Source of the DNA: Blattabacterium cuenoti
Lineage (GTDB): Bacteria; Bacteroidota; Bacteroidia; Flavobacteriales; Blattabacteriaceae
DNA length: 64,000 nucleotides
NCBI RefSeq assembly: GCF_014252095.1
Contig: NZ_CP059210.1
Coordinates: 286,392 to 350,391, forward strand
Direction: 5' to 3'
Shown here in pieces: positions 2,484-60,356 of the stretch (within the stretch, counting starts at the first letter, position 1; every line of letters begins with the position of its first letter). Position numbers and translations under genes: made by a program. The notes under the pieces were generated by a model. It searched no databases. It had not been told where the DNA came from and saw nothing but the letters and a program-made list of their open reading frames with translations.

Positions 2484-3158
2484 ATGCGTATAGATATTGT
2501 TAGCGTAGTTCCGGAAATTTTCAAGGGAATTTTTTCAAGTTTTATTATTAAAAGAGCTATAAATAAAGGAATTATGAATATTCATATTCATGATTTACGA
2601 AAATATGGTTTAGGAAAGCGTCAAAAAGTGGACGACTATCCTTATGGAGGGGGAGCTGGGATGATTCTTAGAATAGAACCCGTATATCAGTGTTTTGATA
2701 AATTATTATCAGAAAGAAATTATGATGAAAAAATTTTTATGACTCCTGATGGAATCCTTTTTTCACAAAAATATGCTAACGTATTAATTTGTAAGAAAAA
2801 TATTCTTATCCTGTGTGGTCGTTATAAAGGAATTGATCAGAGAATTAGAGATCACTTAATTTCCAAAGAAATATCTATTGGTCCTTATGTGTTATCTGGT
2901 GGAGAACTAGCTGCGGCTGTTGTAGTAGAAACCATTTCCAGATTATTACCTGGAGTTATGCATAATCCAGATTCCATGATCACGGATTCTTTTCAAATGG
3001 AAAAAATGGGCCCCCCTCCTATTTATACTCGTCCAGAAATTTACAAAGGATGGTCCGTTCCAAAAATCCTGTTATCTGGACATCACAAAAAAATAAAAGA
3101 ATGGATTTTTAAAAAATCTATCCAAAAAAAATTGGATTCTGAAAGATTTACATTATGA
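2484..3158 (+). CDS. trmD: tRNA (guanine-N1-)-methyltransferase TrmD
   Basis: 224 residues, typical for TrmD. It methylates G37 of tRNAs with a G36 anticodon base, using SAM bound in a trefoil knot, and prevents +1 frameshifting. Visible signatures are RIDIVSVVPEIF at the N-terminus, YPYGGGAGMILRIEP near residue 53, LCGRYKGIDQR near 112, and the knot segment IGPYVLSGGELAA near 132. Its TGA (3156-3158) overlaps the argH TAA from the other strand by 6 nt, leaving no space for a terminator between the two convergent genes. Confidence 0.97.
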   Translation: MRIDIVSVVPEIFKGIFSSFIIKRAINKGIMNIHIHDLRKYGLGKRQKVDDYPYGGGAGMILRIEPVYQCFDKLLSERNYDEKIFMTPDGILFSQKYANVLICKKNILILCGRYKGIDQRIRDHLISKEISIGPYVLSGGELAAAVVVETISRLLPGVMHNPDSMITDSFQMEKMGPPPIYTRPEIYKGWSVPKILLSGHHKKIKEWIFKKSIQKKLDSERFTL

Positions 3159-4514
3159 ATTTTTTCCATAAACTAACCGTTCGATCACTTTTCGAATGAT
3201 CTCAAAATCAAATTTATTTATTAGTTTTCGCATCATGTCTCTAATTTCTTGATTACACAAATTTCCTATACTTCCTTCATGAGAAGGATAAAAAATTTCT
3301 TTTTTAAAGGGTTTAAAACGTCCATTTTGAATATCATTCCCCACCTTTTGATAAGCTTCTCTAAAAGAATATCCTTTTTGTACAAGTTGATGGACGGCCT
3401 CGACACTGAATAAATATTTATACTTCTCCTCACAAAGAATGTCTTTTCGAACCACAATATGATTCAACATGTACCTAAATATGGAAAAACACTTTTTCAA
3501 TTCATCAAAGACAGGTAAAAATCTTTCTTTAATTATTTGAAAATCTCTATGGTATCCAGAACACAAATTGGATGCAATCAAAGAAATTTCATTCGGCAAT
3601 GAAGATATTCTATTGCATTTAGCTCGTATGATTTCAAAAACATCTGGATTTTTCTTATGAGGCATAAGACTAGATCCGGTGGTCAGAAAATCAGGAAAAC
3701 TGATGAAATTGAAGTTTTGATTTAAATATAAGCAAATATCTTGGGCCATTTTACTCAAAGTTCTGGCTAAAGAAGCAAGGGATTCTGTTACGATTCTTTC
3801 CATTTTTCCTCGTCCCATTTGAGCATATACAACATTATAATTTAAATTTTCAAATCCTAATAATTCCGTTGTCATTTTTCGATTTAAAGGAAAAGAAGAT
3901 CCGTAACCAGCAGCGGAACCTAAAGGGTTTTTGTTAGTAATCCGATAAGCTGTGTGAATTAATAACATATCATCTATTAAACTTTCCGCATAGGCCGCAA
4001 ACCAAAGTCCAAAAGAAGAAGGCATAGCAATTTGATAATGAGTATAACCAGGCATTAATATATTTTTATATTGTTCACTTAATTGTAATAATAAATCAAA
4101 AAAAGAATAGACTATGAATACAATTTCTTTGATTTCTGTACGAATAAAAAGTTTCAAATCTACCAATATCTGATCATTTCTGGATCTACCACTGTGAATT
4201 TTCTTTCCAACTTTTCCTAGACGATTTGTTAACAAAAATTCTATTTGAGAATGGACATCCTCTATTCCTTCATCCATTTGAAAATTATTTGTTAATATTT
4301 CGTGTATATAAATATGACGTAATTCTTTAATTAAAATTTCTAAATCTTTTTGATTTAATAATCCAATACTTTCTAACATCATCACATGAGCTATGGTTCC
4401 AATAACGTCATGTGGGGCTAAAAGTAAATCTAATTTTGAATCTTTCCCTGAAGTAAATTCTTCTATTTCTCTATTTCTATTATGAGAATGAATATCTTTT
4501 TCCCAAATTTTCAC
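3153..4514 (-). CDS. argH: Argininosuccinate lyase
   Basis: 453 residues. Catalyses the last step of arginine synthesis, argininosuccinate to arginine plus fumarate. The superfamily signature GSSLMPHKKNPDVFE (near residue 282) and the SGRSRNDQ motif near 110 are intact. The start is GTG at 4512-4514, giving KIWEKD, the usual Bacteroidetes N-terminus. The gene is separated from the other arginine genes, which form an operon at 49.3-60.4 kb. Divergent from gyrB. Confidence 0.96.
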   Translation of the reverse strand: MKIWEKDIHSHNRNREIEEFTSGKDSKLDLLLAPHDVIGTIAHVMMLESIGLLNQKDLEILIKELRHIYIHEILTNNFQMDEGIEDVHSQIEFLLTNRLGKVGKKIHSGRSRNDQILVDLKLFIRTEIKEIVFIVYSFFDLLLQLSEQYKNILMPGYTHYQIAMPSSFGLWFAAYAESLIDDMLLIHTAYRITNKNPLGSAAGYGSSFPLNRKMTTELLGFENLNYNVVYAQMGRGKMERIVTESLASLARTLSKMAQDICLYLNQNFNFISFPDFLTTGSSLMPHKKNPDVFEIIRAKCNRISSLPNEISLIASNLCSGYHRDFQIIKERFLPVFDELKKCFSIFRYMLNHIVVRKDILCEEKYKYLFSVEAVHQLVQKGYSFREAYQKVGNDIQNGRFKPFKKEIFYPSHEGSIGNLCNQEIRDMMRKLINKFDFEIIRKVIERLVYGKNS

Positions 4515-8707: not shown

Positions 8708-10090
8708 ATGAAAGTAAAAAAAGAAAAAATTTTACTCATAGCATTTTTAAGTGTTTTAGCATATGTGTTTATCCACTTATCAAAATCCTTTTTAGGATTG
8801 GATAAATGGACTCTTTGCATGTTTAGATGTTTCGTAATATCTCTGTTCATGTTTTATGCCTTTCTGAAAAAGGACTTAACAACTTGGATCTTGTTATCCA
8901 TCATCATAGGAATAGAAGTAGGATTAGATCAACCGAAGATTGCTATAGAACTAAGATTTTTATCTCAAATATTTTTGAGAATGATTAAAACTATTATAGC
9001 TCCAATATTATTTTCCACTTTAATAGTGGGTATAGCTAGTCACTCTAATATTAAACAATTAGGGAGTATGGGATGGAAATCTCTTCTATATTTCGAAATA
9101 GTAACTACTTTAGCCTTATTCATTGGTCTTATTGCTATTAATGTATCTCAAGCAGGAATAGGAATCGTGATGCCTTCAGGAATGACGGAACAGCAATTAC
9201 CGAAAGTAGAAAGTAAATCTTGGCAAGATACTATTCTTCATGTTTTTCCAGAAAATTTTATTAAATCTATCTATCATGGAGATGTGTTACCTATTGTGGT
9301 ATTTTCCGTTATTTTTGGTGTATCTATGGTTTTTTTGGATGAAAAAAAACGTAGTCCTCTATTACTCTTTGCAGAGAGTCTTTCAGAGATTATGTTTAAA
9401 TTCACTAAGATCATCATGTATTTTGCTCCTATAGGAGTAGGATCCGCTATAGCTTATACAGTAGGACATATGGGGTTGGATATATTATATAATCTTTTTC
9501 AATTATTATTGACGCTTTATATTGCTTTACTTATATTTTTAATAGTGGTTCTCCTCCCTATTCTTTTATGGATTAAAGTTCCTTTAAGAGGGTTCGTAAA
9601 GGCATTAACGGAACCTGTATCCTTAGCGTTTGCTACTACAAGTTCAGAATCTGCCTTACCTCTTCTTATGGAAAATTTAGAAAAATTAGGTGTTCCCAGA
9701 AAAATTGTTGCTTTTGTGATTCCTACAGGTTATAGTTTTAATTTAGATGGAACGACTCTTTATTTATCTTTAGCTACTGTGTTTGTAGCACAAGCTTCTG
9801 GAATTCCTTTAAGTTTTAGTCAACAAATATTTATAGGTTTAACTTTAATTTTGACTAGTAAAGGGGTGGCTGGAGTTCCAAGAGCTTCTTTAGTAATTCT
9901 TTTAGCTACTGTAGCGTCTTTTGGACTACCTACTTGGCCTATATTAGCAATTATAGGAATAGATGAATTGATGGATATGGCTCGTACTACTGTAAATGTT
10001 ATAGGAAATGGATTGGCAAGTTGTGTCATTGCTCGTTCAGAAGGAGAATTAGACGATAAAAAAATGTTAGATTATATAAAAAAAACGTGA
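8708..10090 (+). CDS. Dicarboxylate/glutamate:cation symporter (DAACS family)
   Basis: 460 residues, polytopic inner-membrane carrier of the GltP/DctA family, which imports glutamate, aspartate or C4-dicarboxylates with Na+ or H+. Family signatures: LRMIKTIIAPILFSTLIVGI near residue 93, the serine-rich FATTSSESALPLL near 306, PTGYSFNLDGTTLY near 340 and the GVAGVPRAS hairpin near 383. Two extra N-terminal hydrophobic segments precede the core. Starts 53 nt after tRNA-Gln. Substrate cannot be fixed by eye; glutamate/aspartate fits a nitrogen-recycling symbiont. Confidence 0.92.
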   Translation: MKVKKEKILLIAFLSVLAYVFIHLSKSFLGLDKWTLCMFRCFVISLFMFYAFLKKDLTTWILLSIIIGIEVGLDQPKIAIELRFLSQIFLRMIKTIIAPILFSTLIVGIASHSNIKQLGSMGWKSLLYFEIVTTLALFIGLIAINVSQAGIGIVMPSGMTEQQLPKVESKSWQDTILHVFPENFIKSIYHGDVLPIVVFSVIFGVSMVFLDEKKRSPLLLFAESLSEIMFKFTKIIMYFAPIGVGSAIAYTVGHMGLDILYNLFQLLLTLYIALLIFLIVVLLPILLWIKVPLRGFVKALTEPVSLAFATTSSESALPLLMENLEKLGVPRKIVAFVIPTGYSFNLDGTTLYLSLATVFVAQASGIPLSFSQQIFIGLTLILTSKGVAGVPRASLVILLATVASFGLPTWPILAIIGIDELMDMARTTVNVIGNGLASCVIARSEGELDDKKMLDYIKKT

Positions 10091-13194: not shown

Positions 13195-14154
13195 ATGAAT
13201 CCTAAAAAAATTTTTATTGAAAAAGTAAAACAAAAAGGAGGATGGGTGAATGCTCATGCTCACTTGGACAGAGCTTATACTCTCACAAAAAAAAATTTTA
13301 AATACTCTTATTTTTCTCTGAAAAAAAAATGGTATTTAGTTGATGAAATGAAACGTTTAGCTACAGAAGAGGACATTTATATTCGTATGGAAAAAGCTTT
13401 GGAATACTTTTTAATACAAGGAACACAAGCTTTATGTACTTTTATTGATGTGGATGAAGTTATTGAAGACAGAGTATTAAAAGCCGCTAATAAATTGAGA
13501 AATAATTATGGTCGTTCGATACATCTTCGTTTTGCTAATCAAGTTCTTAAAGGAGTTTTAGATAAAAGATCTAAATATTGGTTCGATCAATCTTTAGAAT
13601 TTGTGGATATTATTGGTGGATTACCCGCTAAAGATTATGGAAGAGAAGATGAACATCTCGATATTTTATTAAAAACAGCTAAAAAAAAGGGAAAGTTAGT
13701 ACATGTCCATGTAGATCAATTTAATACGGATGAGGAAAAAGAAACTGAACAACTAGCAAAAAAAACTATTGAATATGGCCTTCAAGGAAAAGTAGTAGCC
13801 ATACATAGTATTTCTTTAGCAGCACATACTAGAAAATATCGTTATGAAATTTACAAATTAATGAAAAGAGCTAATTTAATGGTAATATCTTGTCCTATTG
13901 CTTGGATTGATCATACTAGAAGTGAACGTTTAACTCCCAGTCATAATTCTATTACTCCAGTAGATGAAATGCTTCCTGAAGGAATTATAGTGGCTTTTGG
14001 AACCGATAATATCTGTGATATATACAAACCTTTTTCTGATGGAAATCTTTGGATAGAATTACGTGTGATGTTAGAAGCATGTCATTATTATGACATAGAC
14101 CATTTGGTTAAAATCGCTACGGAAAATGGATTAAAAGTATTAGGATTGAAATAG
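13195..14154 (+). CDS. CodA-like metal-dependent amidohydrolase of unknown substrate
   Basis: 319 residues from the ATG at 13195; the frame extends back to a TTG at 13159 inside rsmG, but the ATG fits better. A TIM-barrel amidohydrolase: HAHLD (His21, His23, Asp25), HVDQ (His172), His204 and GTDN (Asp271) provide the metal ligands in the order seen in cytosine deaminase CodA, and the C-terminal half follows CodA well. Compared with my recollection of CodA, the catalytic Glu next to the third His is Gln175 and the second Asp of the Asp-Asp pair is Asn272, so cytosine deamination is doubtful. It sits 17 nt after rsmG with no pathway neighbours. Confidence 0.8.
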   Translation: MNPKKIFIEKVKQKGGWVNAHAHLDRAYTLTKKNFKYSYFSLKKKWYLVDEMKRLATEEDIYIRMEKALEYFLIQGTQALCTFIDVDEVIEDRVLKAANKLRNNYGRSIHLRFANQVLKGVLDKRSKYWFDQSLEFVDIIGGLPAKDYGREDEHLDILLKTAKKKGKLVHVHVDQFNTDEEKETEQLAKKTIEYGLQGKVVAIHSISLAAHTRKYRYEIYKLMKRANLMVISCPIAWIDHTRSERLTPSHNSITPVDEMLPEGIIVAFGTDNICDIYKPFSDGNLWIELRVMLEACHYYDIDHLVKIATENGLKVLGLK

Positions 14155-48231: not shown

Positions 48232-48870
48232 ATGGTTTTTTATTCTTCTGATAAAGGGAATCTAAATTGTATAGAATCTGCTTTGCAAGATATACAAAAT
48301 GGAAAACTTATTATTGTGGTGGATGATGAAAATCGTGAAAATGAAGGAGATTTTGTAGTGGCCGCAGAAAAAGTAACCCCTAAAATTGTCAATTTTCTAA
48401 TTACTCATGGTAGAGGTTTAGTTTGTGTTTCCTTAACAGAGGAAAAATGTGATCAATTAGAACTTCAAATGATGGTGAACAATAACACAGATCCTAGAAA
48501 AACAGCTTTTACCGTATCCGTAGATGTACGAGGTTATGGCGTAAGTACAGGGATATCTGTTTCAGATAGAGCTAAGACTATATTAGCACTAGTTCACGAA
48601 GTCAAACCAGAAGCTTTTAACAAACCAGGTCATATTTTTCCTCTTCGCGCAAAAAAAGGAGGGGTATTAGAAAGACCAGGACATACAGAAGCGGCAATAG
48701 ATCTAACTAGAATGGCAGGATGCATCCCTGGAGGAGTATTGGTAGAGATTCTGAATAAAAACGGATCTATGGCGCGTTTTCCACAATTAATTCAAATGGC
48801 TAAAAAATTTCATATGAGAATTATATCGATAGAAGATCTAATCAAATATAAAATAAAAAACAACATATAA
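48232..48870 (+). CDS. ribB: 3,4-dihydroxy-2-butanone-4-phosphate synthase RibB
   Basis: 212 residues. Converts ribulose-5-phosphate to the four-carbon precursor of riboflavin. DDENRENEGDFVVAAE near residue 25 holds the metal-binding Glu; THGRGLVCV near 58, GHIFPLRAKKGGVLERPGHT near 140 with the His and Glu ligands. In many Bacteroidetes this domain is fused to RibA; here the gene ends at the RibB domain and the next feature is tRNA-Asp, so RibA must be elsewhere or lost. Confidence 0.95.
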   Translation: MVFYSSDKGNLNCIESALQDIQNGKLIIVVDDENRENEGDFVVAAEKVTPKIVNFLITHGRGLVCVSLTEEKCDQLELQMMVNNNTDPRKTAFTVSVDVRGYGVSTGISVSDRAKTILALVHEVKPEAFNKPGHIFPLRAKKGGVLERPGHTEAAIDLTRMAGCIPGGVLVEILNKNGSMARFPQLIQMAKKFHMRIISIEDLIKYKIKNNI

Positions 48871-49334: not shown

Positions 49335-50417
49335 TTAAAATTGAAAGTCTTTTAACAAACGGATATAAATATCTATTCCATCTAGGATTTCAGAAATATG
49401 AATATACTCATTTGTGGTATGAGAACGTTTGCTGTCTCCTACACCCATTTTAATAGTTGGAAAAGACATAATACTTTGATCAGAAAGAGTAGGAGATCCA
49501 TAAATTTTCCTCCCTATTGACTTAGCTTTTGATACAATTGGATGTGATGGATTTATGAAAGAAGAATTGGAATGAGAAGAACGTGGTTGTATTTTAGAAT
49601 GAATTTTTTTTCGGATCATTTCAATCAATTCCTCATTGGTATATAATTCATTAGTTCTAATATCTATGACAAAAGAGCAAGAATCCGGAATTACATTATG
49701 TTGTATCCCTCCTTGGATTTGAGTGACTGTTAATGTAGGATAACCTAGCAATTTAGACTTTCTATCAAACTGAATATTTCTTAAACATTCTATATCTTTT
49801 GTAGCTATATAGATAGCATTAACCCCTATATCTCTTGCAGAATGTCCTGTTTTTCCTTCCGATAGGCAATCTAAAACTAATAATCCTTTTTCAGAAATAG
49901 CTACTTGCATTTTTGTTGGTTCCCCTATTATCCCTAAATCTATTTTTCCTAATTCAGATAAAATAGATCTTATCCCTAATGGTCCAGAAATTTCCTCTTC
50001 TGCTGTAAGAGAAAGTACCAATTTGTAAGGTAGGACAGATAAACTGTTTAAGTATATAAAAGTGGAAATTAATGAAACAACAGAAGCTCCCGCATCATTA
50101 CTTCCTAAACCTATTAATTTATCTCCTTTTTTTATAGCCGTAAAAGGATCTTTTTTCCAGTTTTTTCCTGGTTTTACTGTATCATGATGAGAATTTAATA
50201 AAATAGTGCGAATATTTTCTTTTTTAGCATCATAATTAGTATTTTCTGTCCATATATTGTTAAATTTTCTTTTTATATGAAATCCATATCTAGAAAGATA
50301 GTCTTCTATCAGAAAAGATACTTTTTTCTCTTTCTTAGATATAGATGGCATATTTATCATTTTTATAAGAAGTTGTATAGCTTCTTTCTTTAATATTTTT
50401 AAATCTACTACAGACAT
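49335..50417 (-). CDS. argE: N-acyl-ornithine/N-acyl-citrulline deacylase (ArgE type)
   Basis: 360 residues, M20 zinc peptidase family. Metal and catalytic motifs: LLNSHHDTVKPG near residue 74, GLGSNDAGASV near 102 and LTAEEEISGPLG near 131. In a pathway using an acyl-ornithine transcarbamylase it removes the acyl group from acyl-citrulline rather than acyl-ornithine. Last gene of the arginine operon; start overlaps argB by 10 nt. Confidence 0.92.
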   Translation of the reverse strand: MSVVDLKILKKEAIQLLIKMINMPSISKKEKKVSFLIEDYLSRYGFHIKRKFNNIWTENTNYDAKKENIRTILLNSHHDTVKPGKNWKKDPFTAIKKGDKLIGLGSNDAGASVVSLISTFIYLNSLSVLPYKLVLSLTAEEEISGPLGIRSILSELGKIDLGIIGEPTKMQVAISEKGLLVLDCLSEGKTGHSARDIGVNAIYIATKDIECLRNIQFDRKSKLLGYPTLTVTQIQGGIQHNVIPDSCSFVIDIRTNELYTNEELIEMIRKKIHSKIQPRSSHSNSSFINPSHPIVSKAKSIGRKIYGSPTLSDQSIMSFPTIKMGVGDSKRSHTTNEYIHISEILDGIDIYIRLLKDFQF

Positions 50418-51196
50418 AAAACGGTCTTATTATTCAAATCATTTAAATAATAAGGTTGACCTATACTTACCTTAGATACTCCATTCTTTAATGCAAAAAA
50501 AGCATTTTCCAATTTTGGAATCATTCCATTTTTAATAGTATGATTTTTTTTGATTATTTGAAATAAACGAAAATCTATTTTTTTATAATAAGATTCAGCA
50601 TCATCTAAATATCGTAATACTCCCTTTTTTTCAAAACAAAAATGCAGTTCTATTTCATCCCCTTTTTTGGTTAAGGATATAGCGATCCCTGCCGCTATAG
50701 TGTCTGCATTAGTATTTAGAAGAACCCCTTTTCCATTATGAGTAATAGAACAAAATACAGGAACAATCTTTTTTTTCAAAAGAAATTTTAAAAAAAAAGT
50801 GTTAACACTTCTATTGTTGATATCTCCTACGTATCCATAATCAATATCCATTTCTGTTTTTTTTAAACGAAAGGAAGACTTTATACTATTTCCATCTGCC
50901 CCACATAATCCCAAAGCATTACAGTCATAAGATTGCAATTTAGCTATAATTTTTTTGTTGATTAAACCTGCATAAGTCATCACCACTAGATCAAGAGTTA
51001 CTTGATCCGTAATCCTTCTTCCTTGCATAAATTTTTGAGTAATTCCCATTTGATCAGCAATAATAGTTGCCTTACTTCCTCCTCCATGAACGAATATTTT
51101 ATTCCCTTGTAGTTGCAAAAAGGACTCTAAAGAAGCATTCAGCCATTTTGGATCATTAATCAAATTTCCTCCAATTTTTACTATATGGATTTTCAT
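50408..51196 (-). CDS. argB: N-acylglutamate kinase (ArgB)
   Basis: 262 residues, amino-acid kinase fold. KIGGNLIND near residue 7, FVHGGGSKATII near 35, and the C-terminal TIKNGMIPKLENAFFAL near 215 fit ArgB. Phosphorylates N-acetyl (or N-succinyl) glutamate. It is near the short E. coli-type form and lacks the N-terminal helix linked to arginine-inhibited hexamers. Overlaps argF' by 4 nt and argE by 10 nt. Confidence 0.94.
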   Translation of the reverse strand: MKIHIVKIGGNLINDPKWLNASLESFLQLQGNKIFVHGGGSKATIIADQMGITQKFMQGRRITDQVTLDLVVMTYAGLINKKIIAKLQSYDCNALGLCGADGNSIKSSFRLKKTEMDIDYGYVGDINNRSVNTFFLKFLLKKKIVPVFCSITHNGKGVLLNTNADTIAAGIAISLTKKGDEIELHFCFEKKGVLRYLDDAESYYKKIDFRLFQIIKKNHTIKNGMIPKLENAFFALKNGVSKVSIGQPYYLNDLNNKTVLCL

Positions 51197-52152
51197 GATA
51201 AAGATTGTAAAATTTTCAAAAAAATTATTTGTGCCGCATAAATCCTATTTTCTGCTTGTTGCAAAATAATGGAATTTGGACTATCCAAAACTGCATCTTC
51301 CACTACCATATTTCTTCTTACAGGTAAACAGTGCATCAATTTAGCTTGATTAGTCAACTTCATTTTTTTTTCAGTAATCATCCAACTAGAACTAGAACAA
51401 AGTATTTTTCCATAATTTATATAACTGCTCCAATTTTTTGCATAGATAAAATCTGCATTTAAAAATGCTTCATTTTGGTTATGAATAGTAGGAATCCCGT
51501 AAGAAAATTTTTTACACAAGTCATATTTTTCAGGACAAGTAATGAGAAAATCTATTTCTTCTATTTTTGATACCCATTGAGAAAGGGAATTGGCTACGGA
51601 ATGCGGTAATGATTTTATATGAGGAGCCCAACTTAACACCACTTTACATTTTTTTTTAGCAGAAAAGGGTTTTATTTCTGCGATAGTCATCACATCCGCT
51701 AAAGACTGTAAAGGATGCAAAGTGGCACTTTCCATGTTGATTACTGGGACTTTAGAATATTTCAAGATCTTATTAAAAATTACTTCTTGATAATCCTCAT
51801 TTCTGTCTAAAAGATTTGGAAAAGTCCTTACTGCTAGAATATCACAATAACTACTTAGGACAGAAATAGCTTCTTTTAGATGTTCTTGAGTATTTCTCAT
51901 GACACTTCCATCACTCATTTCTATTTTCCAGGAATCTTGATGAATATCTAATACCCAAGTATGACATCCTAAGTTAAAAGCCGCTTTTTGACAACTAATT
52001 CTTGTACGTAAACTAGGATTAAAAAATACCAATCCAATTGTTTTATTTTTTCCAATATGTTGAAAACAATAAGGATTTTTCTTCAAATTAATTGCTTCTA
52101 TAATGAGATCATACACATTGAAAACATCTTCTACGCTAAAAAATTTTTTCAT
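51193..52152 (-). CDS. N-acylornithine transcarbamylase (ArgF', acetyl or succinyl type)
   Basis: 319 residues. The carbamoyl-phosphate motif is FFNPSLRTR near residue 43 (SLRTR in place of STRTR), followed by HPLQSLAD near 148, the WAPH segment near 178, and HCLPVRRNM near 285, all as in the acyl-ornithine branch (ArgF'/SOTCase) of Bacteroidetes. The specificity position described for acetyl (Glu) versus succinyl (Pro) enzymes aligns here with Gln89 in NTQEHLKEA. Overlaps argB by 4 nt; 8 nt after carB. Confidence 0.92.
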   Translation of the reverse strand: MKKFFSVEDVFNVYDLIIEAINLKKNPYCFQHIGKNKTIGLVFFNPSLRTRISCQKAAFNLGCHTWVLDIHQDSWKIEMSDGSVMRNTQEHLKEAISVLSSYCDILAVRTFPNLLDRNEDYQEVIFNKILKYSKVPVINMESATLHPLQSLADVMTIAEIKPFSAKKKCKVVLSWAPHIKSLPHSVANSLSQWVSKIEEIDFLITCPEKYDLCKKFSYGIPTIHNQNEAFLNADFIYAKNWSSYINYGKILCSSSSWMITEKKMKLTNQAKLMHCLPVRRNMVVEDAVLDSPNSIILQQAENRIYAAQIIFLKILQSLS

Positions 52153-52160
52153 AAATTCAT

Positions 52161-55100
52161 TTATTCATATTCATCCCAAGCTGTTATAAAAAGTTTATCC
52201 ATAGATAAATGACAAAAAGCTTGTATAAAAGCCTTTGCTAAACGAGTATTAGTGAGGAGAGGAATATTAAAATCTACGGAAGAACGTCTTATAGCATAAT
52301 CATTATCCAACTCTGATTTACTTAAATTTTTGGGAATATTAATAATCAGATCTAATTTTCTATCCTTTATCAAGTCAAGAACATTTGGATCTTTTCTAAC
52401 ATTTGGCCAATGAACCCGTATAGAGGGGATTCCATAATCAGATAAAAAATTATTTGTGCCTTCTGTCGCAAATAATATATATCCTCTTTGATGCAAAAGT
52501 TTCACCATATCTAAAAGATCTAATTTGGATCCAATTGGTCCTCCTGATATAAGAATATTTTTTTTTGGAATAGTATAACCAACAGAAAGCATAGATTTTA
52601 AAAGGGCTTCATCAAAAGTATATCCTAAACATCCTACTTCCCCAGTAGAAGTCATATCTACTCCTAAAATAGGATCAGCATCTTGCAAACGAGAAAAAGA
52701 AAATTGTGAGGCTTTTATTCCTAAGAAATTGGTTGTAAAAAAATTAGGTTCATTTTTCTTCTTTTTCTTTCCAAGAAGAACTTGGGTGGCTAATTCTATC
52801 ATGTTGAAATGAGATATTTTGGATACGAAAGGAAAACTTCTAGAGGCTCTCAAATTGCATTCAATTACTTTCACTTCATTATCTTTAGATAAAAATTGAA
52901 TATTAAAAGGTCCAGATATATTAAAATATTTTGCGATTCTTTTAGATATACGAACTATTTCTTTTAATGTAGATAAATATAGATTGTGTGGAGGGTATAC
53001 TAACGTCGCATCTCCTGAATGTACTCCTGCAAACTCTACATGTTCTGATATCGCATAATATAAAATTTCTCCAGTTTGAGAAACTGCATCTAATTCAATT
53101 TCTTTTGCATTTTTTATAAACTCTGTAATAACTAATGGGTGTTCTGGAGAAACCGATACTTTATCTCTAAGATAACGATGAAGTTCTTCTTGATTAGAAA
53201 TTACATTCATATCCGCACCTGATAGAACATAGGAAGGTCTAACTAATATAGGATAGTCTACTTCTTCTACAAATTGATAAATCGTTTCAAAATCTGATAA
53301 TTCTTTCCATTTAGGTTGCCCTATCCCTAAATGATCCATTGCATGAGAAAATTTGTATCTATTTTCCACTTCGTCTATAGAAAGCGGTGAGGTTCCTAAT
53401 ATCTTGACTTGGTTTTCATAAAGCTTTAAAACCAAGTTGTTGGGAATTTGACCTCCCATAGATACTATGGTTCCTTTTGGTTTTTCTAAATCAATAATAT
53501 CTAAAACACGTTCTAAAGTTAACTCCTCAAAATATAATCTATCACATACATCAAAATCGGTACTAACTGTTTCTGGATTGTAATTAATCATTATAGATCT
53601 ATAAGATTCTTTCTTAATAGCATTTAATGCATTAACACAACACCAATCAAATTCTACACTACTTCCAATTCTATAAACTCCAGATCCTAAAACTATTACA
53701 GATTTTTCATCCTTTTCGTAAAGAACGTCATGCTGAATGGCATGATAAGTCAAATACAAATAATTTGTATATGCTGGATATTCAGAAGCTAAAGTATCAA
53801 TTTGTCTAACATATGGGAGAATACTTCTTTTTTTTCTATATTTTCTTATTTTTTTTTCCAGATCAGAAATTCTCTCCTCCTTCTCTTTTTGATGAATAAA
53901 AAGACTAGCTATTTGCATATCAGAAAAACCTTCTTTCTTAGCTTTACGGAATAATTCATCTGGAATATCCATCCAACTTTCATAAGAAGAAATTTCTTTT
54001 TTTGTTTGAAAAATGTTATTCAACTGGTATAGAAACCACGGATCTATTTTTGTTAAATCATGGATTTCTTTGATAGAAAAACCTTCTTCTAAAGCTTCTT
54101 CTAAAAATAGAATTCTTTGATCTGTTGGTTTTTTCAAAGCCTCTTTGAGCAGGTGAAGGGATCCAATTTTTTTTTTATTTGTATTTATAAATCCTAACAT
54201 TCCAATATCTAACATACGAATCCCTTTCTGTAAAGATTCCTCAAAAGATCCTCCAATAGCCATAACTTCTCCTACACTTTTCATACTACTTCCAATTCTA
54301 TTGGAAACTCCATAAAATTTCTTCAGATCCCACCTAGGAATTTTGCATACCACATAATCCAATGCGGGTTCAAAAAAAGCATAAGTAGTTTTAGTCACAG
54401 AATTTTTTAATTCATGTAATCCATATCCTATAGCTAATTTTGCAGAGACAAAAGCTAAAGGATAACCAGTTGCTTTAGAAGCAAGAGCGCTAGAACGAGA
54501 AAGACGAGCATTCACTTCAATAACCCTATAATCTTCAGATTTTGGATTTAAAGCAAATTGAACATTACATTCTCCTACTATCTCAAATTTTCTGGCTATC
54601 TGTATAGATAATTGTCTTAATTTATAATATTCTGAATTTGTTAAAGTTTGCGAAGGAGCTACTACAATACTTTCTCCTGTATGAATCCCTATAGGATCAA
54701 AATTTTCCATATTGCACACCGCAATACTACTATCATATTTATCTCTAACAACTTCGTATTCAATTTCTTTCCATCCTTCTAAATACTCTTCTACAACTAC
54801 TTGAGAAGAATAAGAAAAAGCTTTATGGATAATTTTTTCTAAATCATGAATATTTTTTGCAAAACCACTTCCTAAACCTCCAAGAGTGTAAGCTGATCTA
54901 ATTATGACAGGAAAACCAATTTTTAAAGCATAGGATGTGGCATCATCCATGGAATCCACCACAAAACTTTTTGCAGTTTTTATATTCATACGGATCAATC
55001 TCTTTCGGAAGAGATTTCTATCTTCACTCTGTATAATTGATTCAATAGACGTTCCTAAAACTTGAATTTGATATTTTTCTAGAAGACCTTCTTTAAAAAG

Positions 55101-55391
55101 TTGAATTCCACAATTTAAGGCGGTTTGTCCTCCAAAAGACAGCAAAATTCCTTTCGGTTTTTCCTTTTCAATAACCTTTTTTATAAAAAAAAATGTGAGA
55201 GGAAGAAAATAAACTTTATCAGCTACTTCTTTCGAAGTTTGTACAGTGGCTATATTTGGATTAATCAATATAGTATAAATCCCCTCCTCTTTAAGGGCTT
55301 TTAAAGCTTGTGTTCCAGAATAATCAAATTCACCCGCTTCTCCTATCTTTAAGGCTCCTGATCCCAGGATAAGTACTTTATCTATTTTCAT
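52161..55391 (-). CDS. carB: Carbamoyl-phosphate synthase large subunit
   Basis: 1076 residues, complete. Two homologous halves, each a preATP-grasp plus ATP-grasp domain (GSGALKIGEAGEFDYSGTQA near residue 10; GSGVYRIGSSVEFDWCCVNA near 569), an oligomerisation segment around 400-550 and the C-terminal MGS-like regulatory domain (from about 935). Uses ammonia from CarA, bicarbonate and two ATP to make carbamoyl phosphate for ArgF' and pyrimidines. Its position inside the operon ties ammonia use to arginine output. Overlaps carA by ATGA. Confidence 0.98.
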   Translation of the reverse strand: MKIDKVLILGSGALKIGEAGEFDYSGTQALKALKEEGIYTILINPNIATVQTSKEVADKVYFLPLTFFFIKKVIEKEKPKGILLSFGGQTALNCGIQLFKEGLLEKYQIQVLGTSIESIIQSEDRNLFRKRLIRMNIKTAKSFVVDSMDDATSYALKIGFPVIIRSAYTLGGLGSGFAKNIHDLEKIIHKAFSYSSQVVVEEYLEGWKEIEYEVVRDKYDSSIAVCNMENFDPIGIHTGESIVVAPSQTLTNSEYYKLRQLSIQIARKFEIVGECNVQFALNPKSEDYRVIEVNARLSRSSALASKATGYPLAFVSAKLAIGYGLHELKNSVTKTTYAFFEPALDYVVCKIPRWDLKKFYGVSNRIGSSMKSVGEVMAIGGSFEESLQKGIRMLDIGMLGFINTNKKKIGSLHLLKEALKKPTDQRILFLEEALEEGFSIKEIHDLTKIDPWFLYQLNNIFQTKKEISSYESWMDIPDELFRKAKKEGFSDMQIASLFIHQKEKEERISDLEKKIRKYRKKRSILPYVRQIDTLASEYPAYTNYLYLTYHAIQHDVLYEKDEKSVIVLGSGVYRIGSSVEFDWCCVNALNAIKKESYRSIMINYNPETVSTDFDVCDRLYFEELTLERVLDIIDLEKPKGTIVSMGGQIPNNLVLKLYENQVKILGTSPLSIDEVENRYKFSHAMDHLGIGQPKWKELSDFETIYQFVEEVDYPILVRPSYVLSGADMNVISNQEELHRYLRDKVSVSPEHPLVITEFIKNAKEIELDAVSQTGEILYYAISEHVEFAGVHSGDATLVYPPHNLYLSTLKEIVRISKRIAKYFNISGPFNIQFLSKDNEVKVIECNLRASRSFPFVSKISHFNMIELATQVLLGKKKKKNEPNFFTTNFLGIKASQFSFSRLQDADPILGVDMTSTGEVGCLGYTFDEALLKSMLSVGYTIPKKNILISGGPIGSKLDLLDMVKLLHQRGYILFATEGTNNFLSDYGIPSIRVHWPNVRKDPNVLDLIKDRKLDLIINIPKNLSKSELDNDYAIRRSSVDFNIPLLTNTRLAKAFIQAFCHLSMDKLFITAWDEYE

Positions 55392-56485
55392 ACTTGGAAG
55401 ATTCTTTTTTTTTCCATAGAATTAATAAAAAGATCGAATAAAAATTCCGTATCTGTAGGTCCACTTGATGCTTCTGGATGAAATTGCACCGAAAAAAAAG
55501 GTTTGTAATCATGAATAATTCCTTCGCAAGTGTTATCATTTAAATTTTTGAAGAACATTTTCCACTCTTTAGAAATATTTTTAGTATCCAAAACATATCC
55601 ATGGTTTTGTGATGTGATAAAATTTTGTCCTTTTTCTAATAAAACAACTGGTTGATTATGTCCTCTGTGTGCATATGGAAGCTTGTAAGTATCTCCTCCT
55701 GCAGCAATTCCCAAAAGTTGATTTCCTAAACATATTCCAAATATAGGTTTTTCTTTTTTCAGAGCCTTACGAAGATAAGATATGGGTTTTTCATAAATTT
55801 TTGGATTTCCAGGACCATTAGAAAGGACCAACCCGTCATATTCTTCCTTCGTAAAATCATAATTCCATGGAACCCGGATGATAGTACAATCCCTCCGTAA
55901 AAGGCAACGCAAAATATTATTCTTTAATCCAAAATCTACAAGTAATATTTTATATTTTCCTTTTCCATACAGAATTTTATTCTGTACAGATACTTTTTCA
56001 GAAAGATTTTCCTGGTTAGGATCATAAAAAGGAAGATCTTCTTTTTCCATTAAAATTTTACCTAACATGCTACCCCCTTTTTTTCTTAGTTTTTGTGCAA
56101 TAAATCTAGTATCTACTCCATATAATCCAGGTACACCATGTTCTTCCAACCAATCCGATAGAGATAAGCTCATATTCCAATGATACGGCCGACTGGAATA
56201 ATAGGAAATAATAAGACCGGTGACTTGAACCTGATCGGATTCATAGAATTCCTGGATTCCTTCCTTCCAAGAGGAAGAGGGAACTCCATAATTTCCTATT
56301 ATAGGATAAGTATAAGTCAATATTTGACCTTTGTAAGAAGGATCAGTTAAACTTTCCGTGTAACCTACCATAGCTGTATTAAAAACTACTTCTCCAGAAG
56401 AAGAGATTTTCGCTCCAAAATGATAAGCTGGATATTCTGTTCCATCTTCCAGTACAAGCATAGCCTTTTTTATATTATTTTTCAT
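55388..56485 (-). CDS. carA: Carbamoyl-phosphate synthase small subunit (glutamine amidotransferase)
   Basis: 365 residues. N-terminal CarA domain (about 1-160) and class I glutaminase domain with the nucleophile Cys in FGICLGNQLLG near 249 and the His-Glu pair in FHPEASSGP near 336. GNQ instead of GHQ after the nucleophile is, as I recall, usual in Bacteroidetes CarA, so activity is expected. Overlaps argD by 11 nt and carB by 4 nt. Confidence 0.97.
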   Translation of the reverse strand: MKNNIKKAMLVLEDGTEYPAYHFGAKISSSGEVVFNTAMVGYTESLTDPSYKGQILTYTYPIIGNYGVPSSSWKEGIQEFYESDQVQVTGLIISYYSSRPYHWNMSLSLSDWLEEHGVPGLYGVDTRFIAQKLRKKGGSMLGKILMEKEDLPFYDPNQENLSEKVSVQNKILYGKGKYKILLVDFGLKNNILRCLLRRDCTIIRVPWNYDFTKEEYDGLVLSNGPGNPKIYEKPISYLRKALKKEKPIFGICLGNQLLGIAAGGDTYKLPYAHRGHNQPVVLLEKGQNFITSQNHGYVLDTKNISKEWKMFFKNLNDNTCEGIIHDYKPFFSVQFHPEASSGPTDTEFLFDLFINSMEKKRIFQV

Positions 56486-57630: not shown

Positions 57631-58605
57631 TTAAAAACGAACGGATTTTAATTTCAAACCACAAATTTCATCCAAATGAAACATAAGATTCATATTCTGA
57701 ACAGCTTGACCGGAAGCTCCTTTTATAAGATTATCTATCACACTAAGAACAATCAATTGATTCTTTTCTTTCATAAGATGTAAAATACACTTATTGGTGT
57801 TAACTACTTGTTTTACATCTATATTTAGATCAGAAATTTCCACAAAAGGATGATTTTTATAATAATCTTTATAGATTTCCTTATTTTCTTCCAAAGAAAA
57901 ACCAGAATGAGTATATAAAGTAGTTATAATTCCTCTAGAAAAATTTCCCCTATAAGGGATCAAATAAACTTCCGATGAAAAATTATTTTGGACTTGATGG
58001 ATAGTTTGTTGAATTTCTTGTAAATGCTGATGATTAAATATTTTATAAGTAGAAATGTTATTATTTCTCCAACTAAATTGGTTAGTCTCACTCATGCTCT
58101 TTCCAGAACCTGTGGAACCAGTTATAGCACTAATATGAATATTTCTTTTCAATAGTTTTTTTTTAGCTAAGGGTAATACAGCTAAAAGAATCGCTGTAGC
58201 AAAACATCCTGGATTAGCAATATTATTAGAGATTTTTATAATCTCTTTTTGTAATTCTGGTAATCCATAGATAAATTTTCTTCTCAAAAAAACCGATTGA
58301 TTGATCATTCTAAAATCTTGACTAAGATCAATAACTTTGATAGTTTCTAATAGATTTTTTAATTCTTTTCTAGATTGTCCATGCCCTGAACAAAGAAATA
58401 CTACATCAACATCCTTGTTTAAAGAATCGGTAAACTTCATATTATCTATTTCTCCTAATAAATCTTGATGAACTGAATGAATCAATTCTCCTGGATGGCT
58501 CCTACTTACCACGCTCTTTATCCTTACTTTTGGATGATAAACCATTAATCTCATTAATTCTCCAGCAGTATATCCAGCCCCTCCTATAATGCCTATCTTA
58601 ATCAT
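57631..58605 (-). CDS. argC: N-acyl-gamma-glutamyl-phosphate reductase (ArgC)
   Basis: 324 residues. NAD(P)-binding GIIGGAGYTAGELMRLM at residue 5 and the catalytic Cys in NIANPGCFATAILLA near 134. Reduces the ArgB product to the semialdehyde. Overlaps the fused GNAT-argG gene by 4 nt (58602-58605). Confidence 0.96.
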   Translation of the reverse strand: MIKIGIIGGAGYTAGELMRLMVYHPKVRIKSVVSRSHPGELIHSVHQDLLGEIDNMKFTDSLNKDVDVVFLCSGHGQSRKELKNLLETIKVIDLSQDFRMINQSVFLRRKFIYGLPELQKEIIKISNNIANPGCFATAILLAVLPLAKKKLLKRNIHISAITGSTGSGKSMSETNQFSWRNNNISTYKIFNHQHLQEIQQTIHQVQNNFSSEVYLIPYRGNFSRGIITTLYTHSGFSLEENKEIYKDYYKNHPFVEISDLNIDVKQVVNTNKCILHLMKEKNQLIVLSVIDNLIKGASGQAVQNMNLMFHLDEICGLKLKSVRF

Positions 58606-60356
58606 TCTTCTTTTTTATTTAAATTATGATACATTTTCATTTGATTGCTCAATATTTTTGTAAAACCTTTAACATCTTCTGCTGTCCAAGCATGATTCAT
58701 TTCTCCATATTGAGCCATGTTAGAATCCATTAAATCAAATTTAGATTTAATTCCAACTAAATGAAATCTATAAGGATATAGAATGATATGCACGGTTCCA
58801 GTCAATCTTTCTTGTGTACTACTTAAAAACATCTCTATATCACGCATGACAGGATCTAAATATTGTGCCTCATGAAGTAACATTCCATACCAATTAGATA
58901 ATTGTTCTTTCCAATAAAGTTGCCATTTTGTAAGAATATGTTTTTCTAACAAATGATGAGCTTTAATAATAATAATGGCAGCTGAAGCTTCAAAGGCCAC
59001 TCTTCCCTTAATACCTAAAATAGTATCCCCTATATGAATCCCCCTACCTATAGCAAATTCTGAGGCAATTTTTTCAATTTTTATGATATTTTTTATGGCT
59101 TTTCCCTTTTCTCTGTTGACACCTACCAATTCTCCTTTTTCAAATTCTAATTCTAGATTTTCACTTTTTCTTCTCCTTAGTTTTGTCGGATAAGCTTCAT
59201 CTGGAAAATCGTTAAAAGAGCTAAGAGTTTCCTTTCCACCAATACTAGTTCCCCAAATTCCTTTATTAATAGAATATTTTGCTTGATCCAAACAAATATT
59301 ATAAACTCCACTATTTCGCAAATAATCAATCTCTTCTTTTCTAGAAATTTTTAGATCTCTTATAGGAGAGAAAGTTATTTTTTCCGGACAAATAATTTGA
59401 AAGGCTATATCGAATCTAATTTGATCATTTCCCGCACCTGTACTTCCATGAGCTATCGCTTTTGCCTTGATATTAGTTGAATATTTCGCAATTTTAATAG
59501 CTTGAAAAATTCTTTCTGAACTGACTGAAAGTGGATAAGTGTTATTTTTAAGAATGTTTCCAAATATAAGATATTTTATGCAATTTTGATAATATTCTTC
59601 TATAGCATCAATAGTTTTGTGCGATATGGCTCCAATATTTAAAGCTCTCTCTTGAATTTTTTTTAACTCCTCTTCTTTAAATCCTCCTGTGTTGATAATT
59701 ACTGTATGGACTTCATATCCTTCTTGAAGGAGATACTTTAAACAATAAGACGTATCTAACCCTCCACTATAGGCCAAAACAATTTTATCTCCAGGAATTA
59801 AGTAATCTATATTTTTTTGTTTATTAGAATCTTTTGGATTATACAAAAGTCCTGTGCAAAGACACATTTTTCTTTTGTTCCGAGTTAATATATCGAAATT
59901 TGCACAACTTTTACATCCTTTCCAAAAATCTTCTGATTGGGTCAGTTCACTAAAAGCTACAGGCTTAAACCCCAATTCCGTATTAATTCTGATCACTGGA
60001 TGACTTGTTGTAATACTAAATATTTTAGAATTCGGATACTTTTTTCTAGAAAGTTTAAATATTTCAATTTTGATAATTTTAGCCAATCCTTGTTTTCTAA
60101 ATTCAGGAAAAACAATCAAACCAGAATTAACTACAAATTCTTTATTTTGATAAATTTCTAGATAACTAAAACCTGCCAATTTTCCATCAAAAAATGCAAT
60201 CACCGCATTTCCACTAATCATTTTTGATTTAATATATTCTGGATCTTTTTTAGAAATCCCAGTTCCTCTAATTTTTGCTGATTCATGGATTTTTTTGCAA
60301 ATTAAGGAAGCATATTTTGTATCCTGATCATGAGATACTCTAACTTTTATTTTCAT
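58602..60356 (-). CDS. argG: GNAT acyltransferase - argininosuccinate synthase fusion
   Basis: 584 residues in one open frame. Residues 1-145 are a GNAT acyltransferase (acetyl-CoA loop FRKQGLAKI near 86-94), a plausible N-acylglutamate synthase. Residues 148-167 hold Cys148, Cys151, Cys165 and Cys167 (CKSC and CLC). Argininosuccinate synthase starts at about 191 with the ATP-pyrophosphatase loop VLAYSGGLDTSYCLKYL; AIAHGSTGAGNDQIRFD near 304 and SIGGKETLS near 370 complete it. No ATG lies between Met164 and the ArgG domain. As I recall, other Bacteroidetes keep GNAT and argG as neighbouring genes. First gene of the operon. Confidence 0.94.
   Translation of the reverse strand: MKIKVRVSHDQDTKYASLICKKIHESAKIRGTGISKKDPEYIKSKMISGNAVIAFFDGKLAGFSYLEIYQNKEFVVNSGLIVFPEFRKQGLAKIIKIEIFKLSRKKYPNSKIFSITTSHPVIRINTELGFKPVAFSELTQSEDFWKGCKSCANFDILTRNKRKMCLCTGLLYNPKDSNKQKNIDYLIPGDKIVLAYSGGLDTSYCLKYLLQEGYEVHTVIINTGGFKEEELKKIQERALNIGAISHKTIDAIEEYYQNCIKYLIFGNILKNNTYPLSVSSERIFQAIKIAKYSTNIKAKAIAHGSTGAGNDQIRFDIAFQIICPEKITFSPIRDLKISRKEEIDYLRNSGVYNICLDQAKYSINKGIWGTSIGGKETLSSFNDFPDEAYPTKLRRRKSENLELEFEKGELVGVNREKGKAIKNIIKIEKIASEFAIGRGIHIGDTILGIKGRVAFEASAAIIIIKAHHLLEKHILTKWQLYWKEQLSNWYGMLLHEAQYLDPVMRDIEMFLSSTQERLTGTVHIILYPYRFHLVGIKSKFDLMDSNMAQYGEMNHAWTAEDVKGFTKILSNQMKMYHNLNKKEE

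Follow-up and report, generated by a model that had tools for sequence, protein, structure and literature searches.

What does a reduced symbiont genome do with a cytosine-deaminase-like protein in which two catalytic residues of the deaminase are replaced? The gene lies in a 64,000-nucleotide stretch of Blattabacterium cuenoti DNA (the window), and an earlier note, made from the letters of the window, had described its product as an orphan amidohydrolase of the CodA type:

13195..14154, + strand, CodA-like amidohydrolase PRK06886 / NF005365 (NCBIfam score, CodA/AtzC fold, active-site map, PyrB/PyrC complementarity)

Family and active site of the window protein

The reading frame is open and intact and encodes 319 aa; the opposite strand is stop-rich. 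Pfam assigns the protein to Amidohydro_1, and the NCBIfam model NF005365 (PRK06886) matches residues 2–319 with 547.3 bits, above its curated cut-off of 340. NCBIfam names this equivalog family a "hypothetical protein", and it has no assigned function. Comparison of the window copy with 16 other Blattabacterium copies (19 were compared and three opposite-strand loci, L003, L006 and L020, were left out) gives dN/dS values of 0.07–0.14, so the gene is under purifying selection, a check that the earlier note had suggested across the genus. PRK06886 is found in 39 of 60 relatives, comprising all 37 Blattabacterium genomes (the window genome included) and 2 of the 23 others of the order, and 4 of 395 genomes of the class exceed the cut-off, the window genome counted. 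A wider contig search returned 42 loci; L069 is a distant match with 24% identity, and the others share 60–90% identity. Their hosts are Blattabacterium, the Empedobacter/Weeksella/Moheibacter group, Saprospira, Aureispira, Chitinophagaceae, Cytophagaceae, records of Sphingobacteriales and the Bacteroidetes symbiont of the aphid Geopemphigus. Among the matches listed in a plasmid search there are distant homologues only, all below 60% identity and the best at 26–30%. With a family member in every Blattabacterium genome and others scattered through the Bacteroidota, PRK06886 is not the orphan it had been taken for, nor is it degenerate.

We mapped the active site by aligning the protein with CodA of E. 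coli and AtzC of Pseudomonas. The five metal ligands listed in the earlier note are all in place, H21 and H23 corresponding to CodA H61 and H63, H172 to H214, H204 to H246 and D271 to D313, which reproduces the CodA pattern (HxH, H, H, D); the protein is probably a single-metal amidohydrolase containing zinc or iron. The two substitutions are equally real. Q175 aligns with CodA E217 and N272 with CodA D314, so the catalytic pair of CodA is missing, and no member that reaches these positions has an acidic residue there. We scored conservation in 76 family loci (64 distinct sequences), counting truncated or unaligned ends as missing. H172, D174, Q175, N177 and H204 are identical in 76/76 loci, D271, N272, Y277 and K278 in the 75/75 that reach that point, and H21, H23, D25 and R26 in 73/73. 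Given this invariance and the purifying selection, the changed Glu and Asp positions are a fixed feature of the family and not a sign of decay.

An AlphaFold2 model built with 30 family sequences (mean pLDDT 87, pTM 0.88; pLDDT below 50 for residues 240–251) has the architecture of a bare barrel. Among solved structures the closest in fold are CodA of E. coli and 5-methylcytosine deaminase of Klebsiella (E about 1e-20; Foldseek E 7e-21 for CodA), followed by AtzC (E 3e-17), which bears out the CodA-type barrel suggested from the sequence. This fold and an identity of about 25% to CodA speak for a salvage cytosine deaminase (EC 3.5.4.1), the function given in published Blattabacterium models. 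We find that function hardly credible, since no member reaching the positions retains CodA Glu217 or Asp314 and cytosine-deaminase models give the window protein 82–104 bits against cut-offs above 400 (103.5 versus 403 for the best). CodA Gln156 is also changed, to Leu, and the extra domain that CodA has at both ends is absent from the window protein, which is barrel only. A metabolic model that had assigned cytosine deaminase to BLBBGE_353 found the reaction isolated and excluded it for want of a role (PMC3819652). By a count of 33 ORFs from the arg-operon deacylase BLBBG_320, and assuming the same gene order, BLBBGE_353 would be PRK06886, and BLBBGE_317, to which that model assigned EC 3.5.2.3 (PMC3819652), would be carB.

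AtzC (N-isopropylammelide isopropylaminohydrolase) is no closer overall, with 25% identity (CodA equally) and a beta-sandwich domain that the window protein lacks. The residues that separate AtzC from CodA include Asn304 for Asp314, His219 for Glu217 and Lys65 for Thr66 (PMC4577212). At the first of these positions the window protein has the AtzC residue (N272), at the second neither Glu nor His (Asp/Gln takes the place of AtzC His219), and at the third a cation, R26 in place of Lys. AtzC Gln160 corresponds to Leu118, and a DNI-D--PF--G motif is common to both proteins. Judged by these residues, the active site tends towards that of AtzC, an alkylamine-removing enzyme, more than towards those of the deaminases. 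AtzC hydrolyses a C–N(alkyl) bond on a ring, and by analogy the window enzyme may catalyse a reaction of the same kind. A substrate bearing several carboxylate groups would fit the invariant K119, K278 and R26.

Pyrimidine and arginine genes in genomes with PRK06886

To our knowledge, all de novo pyrimidine synthesis is taken to pass from carbamoyl phosphate through PyrB and PyrC to dihydroorotate. We audited 51 genomes for these and related genes, 32 with PRK06886 and 19 without. The negatives were taken down the lists of the PRK06886 searches, five of them having been seen previously in a transcarbamylase search, and two entries, G046 and G452, are apparently the same assembly. PyrB (TIGR00670) is over the cut-off in 0/32 genomes with PRK06886 versus 16/19 without (Fisher p about 1e-10); the positives are phylogenetically clustered, and after a rough collapse by eye to 9 clades p is about 3e-5. 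PyrC (TIGR00857) is over the cut-off in 1/32 versus 18/19, and the model has no match in the window genome. The downstream genes are retained, PyrE being over the cut-off in 31/32 versus 18/19 and PyrD exceeding 200 bits in 30/32 versus 19/19. The PyrD of the window genome is of the dihydroorotate oxidase type (470 bits versus 301), and a PyrE–PyrF fusion of 455 aa is kept alongside PyrD in the reduced genomes. This complementary distribution, with the downstream genes retained, is the one expected of a dihydroorotate supplier, and very probably PRK06886 stands in for both PyrB and PyrC.

A census of PF01979 (Amidohydro_1) proteins in nine genomes with PRK06886 narrows the choice of supplier. 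The window genome, G026 and G036 contain a urease and PRK06886 only, the urease of the window genome being identified by its score and the length of its frame. PRK06886 is the only such amidohydrolase in the aphid symbiont (G456) and in a MAG (G452), and the remaining four genomes have three to nine matches. Retention of PyrD and PyrE–PyrF in the reduced genomes implies that dihydroorotate has to be supplied there, and PRK06886 is their only amidohydrolase besides urease.

Half of the PRK06886 genomes (16/32) lack any transcarbamylase match, and ArgH is over the cut-off in 15 of these 16; the other half have ArgF'-like matches only, at 53–77 bits. Outside Blattabacterium, ArgG was searched in seven genomes with PRK06886. 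Where ArgG is absent and PRK06886 present (G046, G097, G136, G169 and G450), ArgH is kept in 5/5, and where both are absent (G043 and G047–G050), no ArgH is over the cut-off in any of the five.

Some genomes count against the proposed replacement. PyrB has been lost and PyrC kept in three of the 19 genomes without PRK06886 (G042, G047 and G051). In Vaginella (G455) PRK06886 coexists with PyrC over the cut-off and argH is broken into three pieces, full-length PyrC-like matches below the cut-off occur in G472, G468 and G471 (261, 219 and 200 bits, respectively), and G470 has no ArgH over the cut-off.

PRK06886 might instead be an unusual dihydroorotase that closes N-carbamoyl-aspartate, with some other enzyme replacing PyrB. 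Dihydroorotases are also amidohydrolases, and such a role would account for the missing PyrC in nearly all PRK06886 genomes and for the sole amidohydrolase in G456 and G452. We nevertheless consider it unlikely, because it leaves unexplained the loss of PyrB in 32/32 genomes, 16 of them without any transcarbamylase match, as well as the linkage to argH and the retention of ArgH without ArgG. The closest folds are moreover CodA and AtzC and not dihydroorotases, and no dihydroorotase model is among the NCBIfam matches of the window protein up to E = 1.

Gene neighbourhoods of PRK06886

Since the genomes with PRK06886 are concentrated in a few clades of the Bacteroidota, the absence of PyrB could be a phylogenetic coincidence and the true function a different one, on some amide or triazine-like substrate. 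We hold this to be very improbable. The pattern spans Blattabacterium, Weeksellaceae, Saprospira/Aureispira, Chitinophagaceae, Cytophagaceae, Sphingobacteriales and the aphid symbiont, and physical linkage to argH and to pyr/pur genes provides independent evidence.

ORF clustering of 31 flanks around PRK06886 reveals two recurrent partners. The first is argH, the immediate same-strand neighbour in 11/31 flanks; with further loci the adjacency extends to 13 distinct genomes, argH lying upstream in 10 of them and downstream in the other 3. The gap between the genes, measured in 12 of the 13, is 54–176 bases; the thirteenth (L068) is a gene truncated at the contig end, and its aligned part starts later. 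TIGR00838 is over the cut-off in 4/4 argH neighbours checked. The second partner, in 10/31 flanks, consists of a gene of the arginine-deiminase fold and, after it, CtlX (citrulline hydrolase). These ten loci are of the Weeksellaceae type and do not have argH adjacent, which counts against the pathway proposed below. In L037:7125-9597 and L043:7041-8896 the two genes directly follow the amidohydrolase, an arrangement for which that pathway gives no reason.

The most extensive cluster is seen in G471 (Cytophagaceae), where 18 kb of one strand carry, in this order, purM, purA, pyrEF, pyrD, argH, PRK06886, purL, purQ and purC, with a small class-II tRNA-synthetase-like gene between pyrD and argH and a few other genes interspersed. 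In G468 pyrEF–pyrD lie 5.6 kb from PRK06886–argH.

Two minor features recur at such loci. Three PRK06886 genomes encode a short class-II tRNA-synthetase-like protein (PF00152) beside argH or pyrEF/pyrD (L190:11945-12808, L189:939-1835 and L187:5-574, the last a fragment just below the cut-off), which may be a paralogue that resembles asparagine synthetase or activates carboxylates. In PRK06886 genomes a fumarate-type (class 1A) PyrD and the PyrE–PyrF fusion often share one locus (L180:495-2889, L184:590-2949, L181, L189 and L190).

In Blattabacterium PRK06886 does not adjoin argH, and this too counts against the proposal. The earlier note had seen no pathway partner adjacent, which is correct for the immediate neighbours, but the window also contains argH, at a distance of 8.7 kb, and the arg operon, at 35 kb:

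3153..4514, − strand, argH, argininosuccinate lyase, 453 aa, GTG start (TIGR00838 300.6 bits; 281.9 from an internal ATG)
8708..10090, + strand, DctA/GltP-like C4-dicarboxylate symporter (NF002461 365.6 bits, below cut-off)
49335..50417, − strand, argE/dapE-family M20 deacylase of the arg operon (TIGR01910 163 bits, below cut-off; PF01546 72.8 bits)
51193..52152, − strand, argF', N-acetylornithine-type carbamoyltransferase (NF003384 289.1 bits versus 288)
52161..55391, − strand, carB, carbamoyl phosphate synthase large subunit (TIGR01369 1477.6 bits)
55388..56485, − strand, carA, carbamoyl phosphate synthase small subunit (TIGR01368 419.6 bits)
58605..60356, − strand, argG, argininosuccinate synthase with about 190 extra N-terminal aa (PRK04527 283.4 bits over 191–582, cut-off 603)

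CarA and CarB were searched in the window only. ArgF' is the sole transcarbamylase found in the window genome (a single PF02729 match). ArgG is over the cut-off for both Pfam domains, Arginosuc_synth and Arginosuc_syn_C, and is the proposed supplier of the substrate in Blattabacterium. Its N-terminal stretch of about 190 aa resembles a GNAT acetyltransferase by eye, with no Pfam match at E 0.001, and possibly represents the N-acetylglutamate synthase otherwise missing from the arginine pathway. Homologues of the symporter also lie near argH–PRK06886 in L040 and L066, which is only suggestive of a tie to the pathway.

ArgG has full-length matches, just below the curated cut-off, in 37/37 Blattabacterium genomes, and argH is absent from 11 of the 37 (G007, G010, G012, G015, G017, G020, G021, G026, G029, G034 and G036) and split in one (G016). 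Loss of ArgH was reported for two strains and attributed to compensation by host enzymes (PMC9603385); our 12/37 exceeds the two named there. The passages of that paper used here do not discuss pyrimidines (PMC9603385).

The neighbours argH, the ADI-family gene and CtlX all act on arginine, citrulline or argininosuccinate, and PRK06886 might accordingly be a catabolic or repair hydrolase of arginine, citrulline or argininosuccinate (open or cyclic), with no part in pyrimidine synthesis. This seems improbable to us: PyrB is over the cut-off in none of the PRK06886 genomes and PyrC in almost none, yet PyrD and PyrEF are kept; G471 has the purine/pyrimidine cluster; PRK06886 is fixed in 37/37 reduced symbiont genomes; and with ArgG present, hydrolysis to citrulline and aspartate would be a futile cycle. 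Other candidate functions were rejected. An N-acyl-citrulline deacylase replacing ArgE, prompted by the argH neighbour, is redundant with the M20 deacylase already in the arg operon of the window. Conversion of argininosuccinate to citrulline and aspartate, arginine deiminase and citrullinase all fail to account for the loss of PyrB and PyrC, and GTP-derived or thiamine substrates have no supporting context.

A candidate route from argininosuccinate to dihydroorotate

Argininosuccinate is the metabolite common to the ArgG, ArgH and PRK06886 gene sets, and from this gene context we deduce that it is probably the substrate of PRK06886. The earlier note had proposed a host- or diet-derived substrate and a role in nitrogen recycling; the neighbourhoods, the loss of PyrB and PyrC and the retention of PyrD and PyrEF point to pyrimidine synthesis from argininosuccinate instead. 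Its idea of a cyclic nitrogen compound fares better and is supported as probable. Argininosuccinate cyclises to anhydrides, and ArgH can work in both directions. Closure on the beta-carboxyl yields an anhydride that amounts to dihydroorotate bearing an alkylamino group at C2, and a bond of this type is what AtzC-type enzymes cut.

The substrate would thus probably be the six-membered cyclic argininosuccinate "anhydride", with a guanidino nitrogen closed on the beta-carboxyl of aspartate and the ornithine amine taking the place of the C2 oxygen of dihydroorotate. Metal-bound water would attack C2, releasing ornithine and leaving dihydroorotate, in a reaction of the AtzC kind, which takes an alkylamine off a ring carbon. 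The atoms balance, argininosuccinate (C10H18N4O6) being equal to ornithine plus dihydroorotate. Since PyrC is almost absent, dihydroorotate is more likely to be formed directly. PyrD and then the fused PyrE–PyrF would carry dihydroorotate to UMP. In Blattabacterium, argininosuccinate would come from ArgG (citrulline + aspartate + ATP), and in genomes without ArgG, e.g. Saprospira, ArgH may run backwards and make it from arginine and fumarate.

We consider it likely that the amidohydrolase supplies dihydroorotate without PyrB, and mostly without PyrC, with argininosuccinate as the best candidate source. Somewhat more cautiously, we favour the view that the flux as a whole is a second natural route to the pyrimidine ring, in which argininosuccinate serves as a carbamoyl-aspartate equivalent and, without ArgG, is made by reversed ArgH with no carbamoyltransferase in the cell. 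Such use of argininosuccinate would explain why argG is kept in Blattabacterium strains that lack argH. A point against the proposal is that the released ornithine would not be fed straight back in Blattabacterium, because ArgF' is of the N-acetylornithine type.

The proposed net role, production of dihydroorotate, is that of PyrB plus PyrC, whereas the protein family and the chemistry differ and carbamoyl phosphate would not be used directly. Another parallel is the ArcE (arginine synthetase) route of Thermococcus kodakarensis, in which the pyrimidine C2 comes from arginine and the usual carbamoyl phosphate synthetase is absent (PMC13260591). That route still yields carbamoyl phosphate via ornithine transcarbamylase (PMC13260591), whereas the one proposed here would avoid carbamoyl phosphate, PyrB and PyrC. 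In the literature searched, from which subscription papers and preprints largely fall outside, we found neither an argininosuccinate route to dihydroorotate nor a mention of the name PRK06886.

An earlier Blattabacterium model had to import dihydroorotate (PMC3819652), and the proposed route, if true, would repair this gap in the metabolic models of the genus. It would also give a function to the hitherto unnamed NCBIfam family NF005365 and explain why argH-less strains keep the rest of the arginine pathway. Annotations would change for free-living Bacteroidota without PyrB and PyrC, and apparent pyrimidine auxotrophs among them may not be auxotrophs.

The window also touches on riboflavin synthesis. 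Positions 48232–48870 (+ strand) encode, by eye, RibB alone (212 aa, without the GTP cyclohydrolase II part), which matches the riboflavin gap named in PMC9603385.
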